Below are positions 21,360-47,020 of a stretch of DNA of 64,000 nucleotides, piece by piece (within the stretch, counting starts at the first letter, position 1; every line of letters starts with the position of its first letter). The stretch is taken from the NCBI RefSeq assembly GCF_003569045.1, contig NZ_BFCB01000003.1, positions 558,001-622,000 on the forward strand, read 5' to 3'. The notes beneath the pieces are model-generated. The model made no database searches. It was not told the origin of the DNA and saw only the letters and a program-made list of their open reading frames with translations. The position numbers and the translations under genes are program-made. The stretch comes from Aggregatilinea lenta. Lineage in GTDB: Bacteria; Chloroflexota; Anaerolineae; Aggregatilineales; Aggregatilineaceae.

Positions 21360-21483
21360 GTGTGTCCGGAAACCCTCATCCCCCGGCCCCTTCTCCCTCA
21401 GGGAGAAGGGGAGCAAGACAGTGGGAGAGGGTTTCCGTGGCGACACGAAAGGCGGTATGGTCGCCTTCCATACACGCTCTTAG
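21360..21483. repeat. 124-nt dispersed repeat, copy A
   Basis: Aligns without gaps to 35691-35814 with about 15 mismatches by hand count. It contains GGAAACCCTC and GAGGGTTTCC as outer arms and CCCCTTCTCCCT with its complement as an inner 12-bp stem. It runs into the stop codon of the sugar-binding-protein gene. Confidence 0.85.
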
Positions 21484-42959: not shown

Positions 42960-44417
42960 CTACGCCTGGCGATCCAGGAACGTCTGCACGAACTGCACGA
43001 AGCGGTAAACATCCGCGAAGGTGGACGCGACCCCGGTCGAGACGCGCACCGCGCCGACGGCGTCCTTTTCGCGCGTGCTCATCACGCGGATGAACTCCTC
43101 GAACGTCATGCGCTCGTGTCCCTGGCCGAAACAGTCCGCCAGGTCGTCGCGCGTGATGCCGTGCGCCTGCTCGCCCGCGCCGGGATTGCAGAAACAGCCG
43201 GTGCGCAGCGAGATGTTGAGCACGTTGGCTTCCGCTTCTACCTCATGGTAATCGAACAGTTTCCCGGCGGGATCGAACAGGTTGAACGTCACCGTGCCGC
43301 CGCGACGGTCAGTGTTGGTCGGGCCGTAGAAGTGGACCAGCGGCGCGCCGTTGGCGTGACGCAGGTCCAGCAGCGCCTTGATCAGCCAGTCCGTCAGCGC
43401 CAGCACGCGCGTATGGATCGTGTCGATGCCCACCGACTCGATGTGCTTCAGCCCGATTTCCACGGCAGGGATGTTCAGGTAATCGATCGTGCCGTCTTCG
43501 AACCCGGCCTCGCCCTCTTGCAGGTAATGGCCGTCGCCCTGCACCGACGCGATGGTGATCGTGCCGCCCGCGAACCAGGGCCGGTGCAGCTTGCCCAATA
43601 CCGCGCGCCGCACGATCAGCGCGCCGACGCCGGTGGGATAGCCGAAGATCTTGTAGAACGACAGTGAGACGAAGTCGGGATGCCAACGGCTGAGGTCGAG
43701 CCGGTTGGTCGGCGCGAAGGCTGCCGCGTCGAGCAGCACGTCCCAGCCTTTGGCCTGCGCGCGTGCGATCCATCCCAGGTCGTGCTGCGCGCCGGAGAAG
43801 TTCGACTGTGCGGGGAAGGCGAACAGGTTGTTCGTGCCGGGCGTCGCCGCGTCGAGCAGGCTTTCCAGGCGGGTTTCGTCCATGCGCAGGTCGGGCGGCA
43901 GCACGGGCACGTAGGTGATGCTTGCGCCCTTAGACCGCGCAAATTCACGGATGCCGTTGACCGAGTTGTGGTTGTCGAAGGTCAGCAGGTAGGCGCTGCC
44001 CGGCCCGAACGGGTACGATTCTCCGACCAGTTTCAGCGCGCCGCTGGCGTTTTGTGTGAAGATCACCGCGTAGTCGTCCGGCGAGGCGTTGAACGTCCGC
44101 AGGACGGCGGCGCGCGCCTGCTCGGCGAGCTGTGTCATCACTTTTGAGGTGGGATTGCTGGAATGGGGGTTCCCGTACACGCCGCCGTGCAGCATCTGCA
44201 TATGCGCGTTGATCTGGCTTTGCGCGTACAGCCCGCCGCCCGTGTAGTCGAGGTAGGTGTGGCCCAGATCGTCCAGGCGGCTGTAGTCGCGGGCGCGCAG
44301 CTCGGCCACCGCGTCCGCATCGAATTCGGGGTGCGCCTGCCGGAAGGCTGCGAAAGCGTGCTGATAGATGTCGTCGTGTTCCAATGAAGCGGATTGTTGC
44401 GATGTGATTGCATGCAT
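42960..44417 (-). CDS. Class V aminotransferase (cysteine desulfurase/Moco sulfurase-like)
   Basis: A 485-residue PLP enzyme. YLDYTGGGLYAQSQINAHM near the start, the PLP lysine K256 in SLSFYKIFGYPTGVGALI, the upstream DAAAF aspartate region and the cysteine-rich loop SLRTGCFCNPGAGE resemble the N-terminal sulfurase domain of molybdenum-cofactor sulfurases and SufS-like desulfurases. It may mobilise cysteine sulfur for a cofactor, but no Moco genes are adjacent. Start 44417 is taken as the first Met giving a normal N-terminus; the frame is open to 44489. The gene diverges from the phosphoribosyltransferase-like gene. Confidence 0.8.
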   Translation of the reverse strand: MHAITSQQSASLEHDDIYQHAFAAFRQAHPEFDADAVAELRARDYSRLDDLGHTYLDYTGGGLYAQSQINAHMQMLHGGVYGNPHSSNPTSKVMTQLAEQARAAVLRTFNASPDDYAVIFTQNASGALKLVGESYPFGPGSAYLLTFDNHNSVNGIREFARSKGASITYVPVLPPDLRMDETRLESLLDAATPGTNNLFAFPAQSNFSGAQHDLGWIARAQAKGWDVLLDAAAFAPTNRLDLSRWHPDFVSLSFYKIFGYPTGVGALIVRRAVLGKLHRPWFAGGTITIASVQGDGHYLQEGEAGFEDGTIDYLNIPAVEIGLKHIESVGIDTIHTRVLALTDWLIKALLDLRHANGAPLVHFYGPTNTDRRGGTVTFNLFDPAGKLFDYHEVEAEANVLNISLRTGCFCNPGAGEQAHGITRDDLADCFGQGHERMTFEEFIRVMSTREKDAVGAVRVSTGVASTFADVYRFVQFVQTFLDRQA

Positions 44418-44549
44418 TAGTCTTTGGCCTTGTGCTTGGATGGGTCCAACTTGCCCAAATAATACTCGCCCTGCGCGCGCCTCCGCCACTCTGCGCTGAA
44501 GTCCTTCGTCAATTTTTACGAAGATTCACGCTTGGCGGGGTGGTTGATC

Positions 44550-44577
44550 TTGGCGACGGCTGGTTTTCCGGTAAAAT
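44550..44577 (+). promoter_or_regulatory. Possible promoter of the phosphoribosyltransferase-like gene
   Basis: TTGGCG (44550-44555), 16 bases, TAAAAT (44572-44577), about 130 bases before the start codon. Confidence 0.35.
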
Positions 44578-44707
44578 ACTGAAGTCACCCCACGGTTCAC
44601 GCTGCACTGGCGCAGCCGGACCGCAGGACGACACGGCGCGCCGCTCTTTTTGCGGCTGCCGAACCCCATCGTCCCATTCGAGTTGGTTCCCAAGGCGGCT
44701 CACGTCC

Positions 44708-45520
44708 ATGATAGTTGAAGTTGAAGAAAGCGTCTTTGCTGCGACGATGAACGCAAACTTATCCCTTTTGGATCGTTCGCCTCGCCAGATTTTGACCAAG
44801 AGTGACGTTCGCGCGGTTGATGGGCAGCCGGTGCTGCCGCTTTCAGCCAATGGGTTGACAGCGTATTTGCCGCTGAAGAACGTTAACCAGGGCAAGCAGG
44901 ACGCGCCGCCGGTGTGGATCGCGTGGTTCGATCCGCTGGTAGATGAGGCCGGACAGGTGGGCGTCGATCTTCTCGCTCCCTATCTCACGCAGCTTGCGCC
45001 GGACCTCGCCATTCAGCCTGCGTCGTCCAAGTCCGAGGGCATGATCGCGATGGCGGTGCAGCGCGCGGGTGCGGCGCTGGAGCGCACCATTCCGCTGGTA
45101 ACGCTGATCGGCGGCACGGACCTGGACGCGGTGCAGGCGGATCTCGTGGCGAATGGCGTGCGCGAAAGCGATCTGCCGGGCTGGACCGTATCGTACCAGC
45201 CGATCACCGGCAAGATCAAACACATGGCCGTGCTGCCAGGTGTGGTCGAGCGCATGGTCGAGATTTTCGAGCGCGGCGGTCAGGTGACGTTGGTGGACGA
45301 TATTTACAGCTCCGGCGCGACTGTTCGCGCCGCGCGTGACGTGATGCGCCGCGCCCTGGCGCGTCGCGGTTACGACGTGCCCGCGACCCTGTTCCCGGTG
45401 GTGGCCGTTGCGCAGGAAGTCGAAGGCGACTACGACGACGCGCAGCGCCGCGAGATCAACCTGGTCTGCGATGCGGTGATCCCGGTCATCGTCGGCCCGC
45501 TGGACGACCCGCTTCAATAG
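44708..45520 (+). CDS. Phosphoribosyltransferase-like protein
   Basis: A 270-residue protein. VTLVDDIYSSGATVRAA (D197-D198 to T205) is a type I phosphoribosyltransferase PRPP loop. The preceding half contains SSKSEGMIAMAVQRAGAALE and TLIGGTDLDAVQADL, unlike the well-known purine or pyrimidine enzymes. It may be a regulatory or orphan phosphoribosyltransferase; the substrate cannot be told. The open frame reaches far upstream, but 44708 is the first Met giving a compact protein (44747 is an alternative). A good terminator follows. Confidence 0.65.
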   Translation: MIVEVEESVFAATMNANLSLLDRSPRQILTKSDVRAVDGQPVLPLSANGLTAYLPLKNVNQGKQDAPPVWIAWFDPLVDEAGQVGVDLLAPYLTQLAPDLAIQPASSKSEGMIAMAVQRAGAALERTIPLVTLIGGTDLDAVQADLVANGVRESDLPGWTVSYQPITGKIKHMAVLPGVVERMVEIFERGGQVTLVDDIYSSGATVRAARDVMRRALARRGYDVPATLFPVVAVAQEVEGDYDDAQRREINLVCDAVIPVIVGPLDDPLQ

Positions 45521-45541
45521 GCATTGCCGCCTGAAAATCCA

Positions 45542-45577
45542 ACGGCCACCCGGTTTATGTGCGGGTGGCCGTTTTTG
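45542..45577 (+). terminator. Rho-independent terminator
   Basis: ACGGCCACCCG and CGGGTGGCCGT stem of about 11 bp followed by TTTTTGTTG, 20 bases after the phosphoribosyltransferase-like gene. Confidence 0.85.
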
Positions 45578-45603
45578 TTGAGGACATAGCCAAGTATTGT
45601 TTG

Positions 45604-45686
45604 CGTAGGGGTGTATTGCGATACGCCCCTGCGGCGTCTATGCCATTTGCCACAAAAAAACGGGCGAGTCATATACCCGCCCCTAC
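45604..45686. repeat. Two R2 palindromes
   Basis: 45604-45631 (GGGGTGTAT/ATACGCCCC with one wobble) and 45661-45686 (CGGGCGAGTCATATACCCGC then CCCTAC, inner arms partly decayed). Confidence 0.65.
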
Positions 45687-45709
45687 AAAACCTTTTTAAC
45701 ACTGCTTGT

Positions 45710-45746
45710 CTCCCCTCTCCAACTTGATTGGAGAGGGGCCGGGGGT
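45710..45746. repeat. R1 repeat, left part (interrupted)
   Basis: CTCCCCTCTCCAACTTGATT then GGAGAGGGGCCGGGGGT. The remainder of the repeat, with GTGAGGT, resumes at 45978-45994 after a 231-bp insertion. Confidence 0.85.
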
Positions 45747-45977
45747 TCTCAAGGGTAGGTTTTTAATTCTTGGGAATCACGCGTCAATGCTTAAGCGAGT
45801 GATTCACCTGCCAGCGGCTGAAACTCAAGGGGTCCGTGGTCTAGACTTGCCAGTGCTTGAGACGGAAAAGACCTCAGATCGTCGACGATTTCACCGTACT
45901 GAAATAGACGCAGGCCCTTGAAAACTCGTGAAAGCTTAAGTCTTCCAGGGCTTCCACAAAAAACCTACCCCTGAAAG
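45747..45977. mobile_element. Non-coding MITE-like insertion with target duplication
   Basis: Termini are T[C/T]TCA[A/G]GGGTAGGTTTTT in inverted orientation (left from about 45747, right ending about 45977), 16 of 18 bases matching. The element is flanked on both sides by GGGGCCGGGGGT (45735-45746 and 45978-45989). Removing the element and one duplicate restores an intact R1 consensus. The interior (231 bp) has no transposase and no sizeable frame, so it must have been moved by an enzyme encoded elsewhere. Confidence 0.8.
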
Positions 45978-46018
45978 GGGGCCGGGGGTGAGGTTGCTAC
46001 GGCGCCCCGCGCCCGTTC

Positions 46019-47020
46019 TTACACCTCGGAGTTCGCCTTCACGAACGCGATCATCTCGTCCACCTGGGCGAAGGCCAGCCCGGTGACCGTGTCCGCCGCG
46101 CCGTAATAGATCGCCAGCCGCCCGGTTGCCGCGTCGGTGAGCGCCGCGCACGGGAACACGACGTTAGGCACGTCGCCCACGCACTCGTACAGCTTCTGCG
46201 GCGACATCAAATAGGGCGCGGTGCGGTACAGCACCTTCCACGGCTGGTCGATATCCAGCAGGGCCGCGCCCATGCTGTACACGAAGCCGTTGCACGACGT
46301 CAGCACGCCGTGATAGATCAGCAGCCAGCCCTCGGTCGTCTCGATCGGCGTGGGGCCGGGGCCGATCTTGGTGCTCTGCCACGTCCAGGGCTTGGGGGCC
46401 ATCACGAAGCGGTGTCTGCCCCAGTGCTCCATATCCAGGCTCTCGCTGTAGAACATGTCCCCGAACGGCGTATGGCCCGTGTCGCTGGGACGGCTCAGCA
46501 TGGCGTATTTCCCGTTAATCTTGCGCGGGAACAGCACGCCGTTGCGGTTATAGGGCAAAAAGGCATTTTCGATCTGCGTGAAGGTCTTGAAATCGTACGT
46601 ATAACCCACGCCGATAGTTGGCCCGTGGTAGCCATTGCACCATGTCACGTAATAACGATCTTCCAGCCAGCACACGCGCGGATCGTAGCGGTAGGCGAAC
46701 GCGCCGATCTCCGGATCATCGCAGACGAACTCGATCGGGTCCGGCTCGATGTTCCACGTCAGGCCGTCCGCGCTGCGGCCACTGTGGATGTTCATGATAC
46801 GGCGCGTATCGTCCGCGCGGAACACGCCCGCGAAGCCGCCTTCGAACGGCACGACCGCGCTGTTGAAGATGCTGTTGGAACGCGGCAGCAGGTCGCGCGG
46901 GATGACCGGGTTGCCGCTGTAGCGCCAGATCACTGCGTCCGATCCGGCGGGGCGGTCCTCCCACGGGATGTTCGGCAGCGGCGCGCCAAGAATGGTGCTG
47001 GAAGAGAGTGCGCTCGTCAT
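46019..47020 (-). CDS. GH130 beta-mannoside phosphorylase/hydrolase
   Basis: A 333-residue five-bladed beta-propeller enzyme of family GH130, which phosphorolyses or hydrolyses beta-1,4- or beta-1,2-mannosidic bonds. Characteristic stretches: [57 protein letters not shown] with the candidate catalytic Asp, and [18 protein letters not shown]. No signal peptide, so it is intracellular. AGGAG precedes the ATG. It is the last gene behind an NMT1-type ABC system and an amidase, an unexpected combination. Confidence 0.88.

Follow-up and report, generated by a model that had tools for sequence, protein, structure and literature searches.

The R1 repeat at the analysed locus of Aggregatilinea lenta is split by a mobile, non-autonomous MITE. 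The genome carries four copies of this element which share their ends and their target and are each flanked by a target-site duplication; in relatives a transposase gene lies between ends of the same kind, and no matching transposase gene was found in A. lenta itself. Very probably, the element is a MITE with the ends of an IS4-family lineage that was mobilised in trans and integrated with a stagger of about 11 bp into a G/C-run target, which in this genome is the core of R1. The locus is part of a window of 64,000 nucleotides (contig NZ_BFCB01000003.1, positions 558,001 to 622,000), to which the following positions refer:

45521..46018: gap between the convergent open reading frames 44408-45520 (plus strand) and 46019-47020 (minus strand) of the mechanical ORF list, holding R1 and the MITE
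45704..45746, minus strand: left part of R1 together with the left target copy, based on the sequence and the comparison with other R1 copies
45735..45745 (12 bp, to 45746, counting the next T), no strand applicable: left target-site duplication GGGGCCGGGGG
45746..45977, plus strand: MITE with a length of 232 bp for an 11-bp duplication and of 231 bp (45747-45977) for a 12-bp one
45746..45764, plus strand: left terminal inverted repeat TTCTCAAGGGTAGGTTTTT
45959..45977, minus strand: right terminal inverted repeat, reading CTTTCAGGGGTAGGTTTTT on the minus strand
45978..45988 (12 bp, to 45989, counting the T), no strand applicable: right target-site duplication
45978..45994, minus strand: right part of R1 together with the right target copy

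Two exact 12-bp copies of GGGGCCGGGGGT in direct orientation, at 45735-45746 and 45978-45989, confirmed that R1 was split by an insertion between duplicated targets, as an earlier note on this DNA had proposed. In agreement with its further statement that the deletion of the element and of one duplicate restores the repeat, joining the flanks in a script yielded an uninterrupted R1 which resembles the other R1 copies of the genome. The inverted arms comprise 16 nt with 94% complementarity (45749-45764 and 45959-45974), and a recount over 18 nt reproduced the 16 matches previously given for the terminal inverted repeats. The element length of 231 bp stated there holds in the 12-bp register and becomes 232 bp in the 11-bp register. 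Since the best common register of the wider family combines an 11-bp duplication with four terminal bases beyond the end motif, the twelfth duplicated base at the window copy may be coincidental.

The four full-length copies in the A. lenta genome share pairwise blastn identities of 80-95%, the closest pair being L002 and L003 (95%). All of them occupy the same position in R1 and possess an 11-12-bp duplication. A search of the 6.2-Mb genome for the exact 15-nt end motif returned eight matches which represent both ends of the four elements. Only exact matches carry weight, since the motif with up to two mismatches was found 17 times compared with 15 times for the reversed control. The element is not a chance arrangement, as three more full-length copies exist and the eight exact end matches pair up. 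The earlier note had named the lack of any second copy as one of two observations that would together count against its non-autonomous mobile element; the four copies with their duplications bear the claim out. The element is short, lacks a transposase gene and combines terminal inverted repeats, a target-site duplication and several copies, as expected for a MITE. The three other copies start about 45-135 bp past the 3' end of a long open reading frame, and in L003 and L004 the element is overlapped by mechanically listed open reading frames of 128-218 aa, which are predictions in GC-rich DNA.

The identical R1 position of all four copies would also agree with a composite repeat, that is, one old insertion that was copied around the genome along with its R1, and so would the loop variants of R1 shared by two pairs of copies (L002/L003 and L001/L004). 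However, each of the two loop variants is also frequent in R1 copies without the element, and elements with the same ends in relatives reside partly in R1-like repeats whose cores differ and partly outside R1. As the element is found in both orientations in R1 (two copies one way and two the opposite way, with differing DNA beyond R1), such a descent seems very unlikely; even the closest copies, L002 and L003, are opposed. Still more improbable, to the point of being nearly negligible, is that the insert represents a conserved non-mobile element, e.g. a regulatory RNA or a boundary element. Its single-stranded DNA fold is somewhat better than those of shuffled sequences (z -2.2; five of 200 shuffles at least as good), as inverted ends would give. 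However, no Rfam match at gathering thresholds was detected in the 901 bases searched (45400-46300), and the four copies are unlinked and have duplications. Furthermore, when 101 genomes were searched with a MITE copy and at most seven candidates per genome were scored, the matches listed for other genomes were confined to the ends and the target and never included the interior.

The search for further copies by their ends, which the earlier note had suggested, also proved productive beyond A. lenta: the exact end motif CARGGGTAGGTTTTT is present in 26 of the 154 genomes of the order Aggregatilineales. A total of 96 stretches were fetched, and ends were paired in all loci then available except the 30 R1 loci L086-L115. 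Among 110 candidate end pairs 64 were kept, while overlapping pairs and weak pairs without duplications were dropped. The distance between the end motifs amounts to 76-372 bp in 58 of the kept elements and to 1.15-1.39 kb in the other six. A duplication of at least 9 bp flanks 34 of the 64 elements and is absent from 30; in the common register the 11-bp duplication is exact in 18, has at most one mismatch in 24 and is wanting in 40. Some of the elements without duplication may result from contig ends, chance pairs or decay.

In genome G016 pairs of MITEs of 76-77 bp were observed about 165 bp apart (L054:423-739, L142:1260-1577 and L117:1439-1757). At these three loci the pair forms a unit of 317-319 bp with its own 11-14-bp duplications, a miniature composite transposon of two MITEs.

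The earlier note had described the element as a MITE of a type that it could not name. The MITE nature stands, and the type can now be named, since the ends are those of an IS4-family lineage. The transposase gene with the same ends for which it had proposed to look was found in relatives and not in the own genome. Locus L034 contains an intact element of 1.21 kb with the same ends and a 376-aa transposase inside, without a matching duplication. Transposase genes between two such ends were detected there and in five more loci, and with one end in L063. Among the 30 transposase loci examined from the scan of the class, the six with at least 40% identity all carry lineage ends (five both, L063 one). 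The loci at 32-38% identity (L060, L061, L064, L085) are without lineage ends, and the other 20 gave a weak one-sided end match in two cases (L067, L073). Some of the relatives' transposase genes are broken, e.g. that of L059 with two stops. In L058, which belongs to a single-contig genome, 12 identical bases flank the 1.39-kb element on both sides.

The intact element of L034 (L034:1348-2558, G042:C159) is located between two cut open reading frames and has no matching duplication. This context would fit a chimeric contig or a rearrangement between copies.

Judged by its protein sequences the mobilising lineage is IS4-like. The transposase P0001 matches Pfam DDE_Tnp_1 (E 6.7e-16) and the NCBIfam IS4 model NF033591 (E 2.5e-29); the latter score of 102.5 bits is under the curated cut-off of 152, the model being the best family nonetheless. 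All four aligned relatives match the NCBIfam IS4 model at E 0.01 or better. The DDE triad Asp111, Asp174 and Glu276 is invariant in the four aligned proteins, as are Tyr269, Arg272 and Lys283 of the Y-2-R-3-E-6-K signature, which a 2008 review describes as a hallmark of IS4 (PMC2266710). The catalytic residues are separated by 62 and 101 residues and thus lie inside the ranges of 60-110 and 100-150 residues given there for IS4 (PMC2266710). A structure model of the transposase built from four sequences was poor (mean pLDDT 50.6) and was not used.

The DDE transposase with its signature, the single open reading frame in intact copies and the short inverted ends agree with the IS4 family as outlined in the review (PMC2266710), and the lineage further resembles the family in its duplications of 10-12 bp, close to one helix turn, and in the size of 1.2-1.9 kb of 12 of the 15 duplication-bearing elements. 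The earlier note had considered a target duplication of up to 12 bp longer than usual, which does not hold for IS4, in which 11-12 bp is normal: Table 1 of the review lists direct repeats of 7-13 bp for the subgroups (PMC2266710). In contrast to the family proper, the lineage is matched by the NCBIfam IS4 models below their cut-offs. Moreover, its ends YTNNCARGGGTAGGTTTTT together with the 11-bp duplication fit none of the seven rows of that table (IS231, ISH8, IS4Sa, IS4, IS10, IS50 and ISPepr1), as compared by eye; IS10, for instance, is listed with 5'-CT ends but a 9-bp duplication (PMC2266710).

A scan of named genomes for the transposase revealed 48 loci. These belong mostly to Chloroflexota (Anaerolineae, Ktedonobacter racemifer, Dictyobacter kobayashii, Chloroploca, Oscillochloris, Roseiflexus), the others to some Cyanobacteria (Nostoc, Moorena, Oscillatoria, Cyanosarcina), two planctomycete bins and one 'Deltaproteobacteria' bin. 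An end pair could be assigned in 28 of the 48 loci (20 gave none under the rule used), and a duplication of 10-12 bp, with one mismatch or none, was found in 15 of these 28 transposase-bearing loci and was lacking in 13. In Chloroflexota and in some Cyanobacteria, lineage ends bound elements of 1.2-2.5 kb that contain a DDE transposase of the IS4 family. The counts of 64 elements and 48 loci are not independent, since several of the scanned loci are contigs found before (e.g. L252/L034 and L289/L062). In D. kobayashii the duplications of L261 and L267 (sequence1, near 4.85 and 4.86 Mb) are swapped, which is the mark of a rearrangement between IS copies, probably an inversion. Rearrangement between copies may be one reason for the unmatched duplications elsewhere.

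In the A. lenta genome, which is 98.38% complete, no autonomous partner with the same ends was found. The partner is seen only in relatives because the own genome offered neither a transposase match nor a further element with exact ends; the same transposase query does have matches (E 1e-10 or better) in 62 of the 396 genomes searched in the class. The ten DDE_Tnp_1 matches of the own genome gave no convincing end pair within about 1.5 kb on each side at up to four mismatches, only scattered weak matches. The event had been called fairly recent in the earlier note, which is unsupported, as the copies differ by 5-20% and the genome yielded no transposase of the lineage. Due to this divergence and the missing transposase the copies look stranded, or like a family that is slowly dying, rather than like a recent burst.

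The transposase would presumably be supplied in trans by a related IS and bind the 19-bp ends of the MITE, which would then be cut out by a cut-and-paste reaction. Insertion between target strands cut about 11 bp apart would create the duplication of 11(-12) bp. The preferred target is a G/C-run site close to CCCCNNNCCCC, often inside CTCA...TCTCC. The partner transposase may since have been lost from the genome or become extinct. R1-sited copies probably do little harm, and such harmless sites could be of benefit to the element. An origin of its interior from a transposase gene by internal deletion found no support, since the interior does not match the transposases of the lineage (no tblastn match below E 0.07).

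A 19-nt R1 pattern with up to three mismatches occurs 266 times in the 6.2-Mb genome (133 per strand) compared with three matches for the reversed control; 30 of these approximately 266 copies were compared by sequence and the other 236 or so were counted. The location of the element in R1 is not incidental, since all four copies sit there, and they do so because the preferred site is the core of R1 in this genome. The insertion point lies beside the hairpin of R1 and not at its axis. On the C-rich strand the consensus of 24 good targets reads approximately CTCA-CCCCNNNCCCC-TCTCC. R1-like flanks are present on both sides in 13 of the 24, four of which are the copies of the own genome. Across the order, CTCACCCN5CCCTCTCC was detected in 104 of 154 genomes, with 146 matches and zero control matches in the own genome. 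It is carried by 25 of the 26 genomes with the ends compared with 79 of the 128 without (Fisher p 0.0004, kinship ignored).

It is conceivable, though somewhat less than probable, that no special targeting of the repeat is involved and that a taste for GC runs together with selection against insertions into genes leaves the copies in R1. The CCCCNNNCCCC entries in the window lie in R1 in eight of 17 cases (six of 15 with the split R1 counted once); as R1 thus accounts for a large share of the loose sites, a loose preference for GC runs combined with gene selection would explain a good part of the pattern. The chance of finding four of four copies in R1 is about 0.03 before gene selection, which is unlikely and yet not decisive. 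Eleven of the 24 targets do not resemble R1, most of these still being C-rich, and the three duplication-bearing Ktedonobacter copies are inserted in G-rich runs. On the other hand, CTCA upstream and TCTCC downstream lie outside the 11-bp duplication and are common to the 13 R1-like targets, and three of seven loci in Dictyobacter are situated at or beside the axis of an abundant palindrome. Between this explanation and the preferred one, a G/C-run target that coincides with the core of R1, the difference is one of degree and not of kind.

The Dictyobacter repeat is a long palindrome with a GGCGGCYRCRGCCGCC core that is very abundant in the D. kobayashii genome (L300-L308), the nine places compared all being long palindromes. 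Its core pattern gave 204 forward and 212 reverse matches compared with eight for the control, with many places counted on both strands as the pattern is palindromic.

The three D. kobayashii IS loci in this palindrome are L259, L271 and L296, which agree with it at 16, 23 and 21 of 24 positions, respectively. The palindrome axis coincides with the centre of the duplication in L259 and L271, and in L296 it is inside the duplication, 2-3 bp off centre. L260 represents another GC-rich site, at which the insertion does not coincide with a palindrome axis (11 of 24 positions, located elsewhere), and the remaining loci, L293 and L261/L267, are at other sites. A Nostoc repeat pattern gave 11 forward and 12 reverse matches; it reads the same backwards, so the reversed control is invalid for it and the count carries no weight as evidence. 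The lineage prefers GC-rich runs and, in at least two hosts, an abundant host repeat. Insertion into REP-like repeats applies to every copy of the own genome and to only part of the wider lineage.

One could speculate, as a rather doubtful extension, that the transposase recognises shape or a general G-run or palindrome feature instead of a single sequence and settles in the most abundant GC-rich palindromic repeat of each host, which would be the flank of the R1 hairpin in these Chloroflexota and the middle of an unrelated palindrome in D. kobayashii. In that case, the transposon would track the REP-like repeats of distant hosts as a safe landing site, which would help to explain the frequent co-occurrence of REP-like repeats and IS elements, and the transposase could serve as a site-preferring enzyme. 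With the same kind of ends in hosts that differ in their abundant repeats, the lineage offers a natural series for the target choice of IS4-type elements.

Nezha is reportedly a MITE of Cyanobacteria, and the present element resembles it at the level of being a MITE in a phylum in which the present IS4 lineage also occurs. Another counterpart is IS231A of the IS4 family, which inserts into a GGG(N)5CCC target with duplications of 10-12 bp and has given rise to IS231-derived MITEs. The lineage shares with it the family, the 10-12-bp duplications and the G/C-run target. It differs in that its site has C-runs on both sides of one strand and its ends are not of the CAT type; the 2008 table gives ends beginning with CAT for IS231A, for which some insertion specificity is described (PMC2266710).

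IS elements that target REP sequences are known in several families (PMC1525189). ISRm22 of Sinorhizobium meliloti is assigned to IS4, and every copy is reported to lie in REP repeats at the palindrome axis with a 6-bp duplication, mixed duplications in some copies being attributed to recombination between copies (PMC1525189). Similar to ISRm22, all copies of the own genome reside in a dispersed palindromic GC-rich repeat, Dictyobacter copies are found at the axis and mixed duplications occur. In contrast to ISRm22, the duplication comprises about 11 bp instead of 6 bp, the A. lenta copies are non-autonomous MITEs, and insertion into R1 takes place beside its hairpin. A search of the literature alone yielded no description of the present element or its ends. 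The element group is little described, and REP-type targeting itself is already known; what is gained is that the element can be named and that its placement inside R1 obeys a rule.

An association of R1 with a RAYT found no support, since no R1 match was detected in the 3.35 kb around L250, the one strong Y1-transposase match. On the plus strand of the window, at 21380 and 35711, the R1 core occurs in a variant form with different flanks (CCCTCAT-CCCCCGGCCCC-TTCTCC), which possibly represents a second repeat subfamily.
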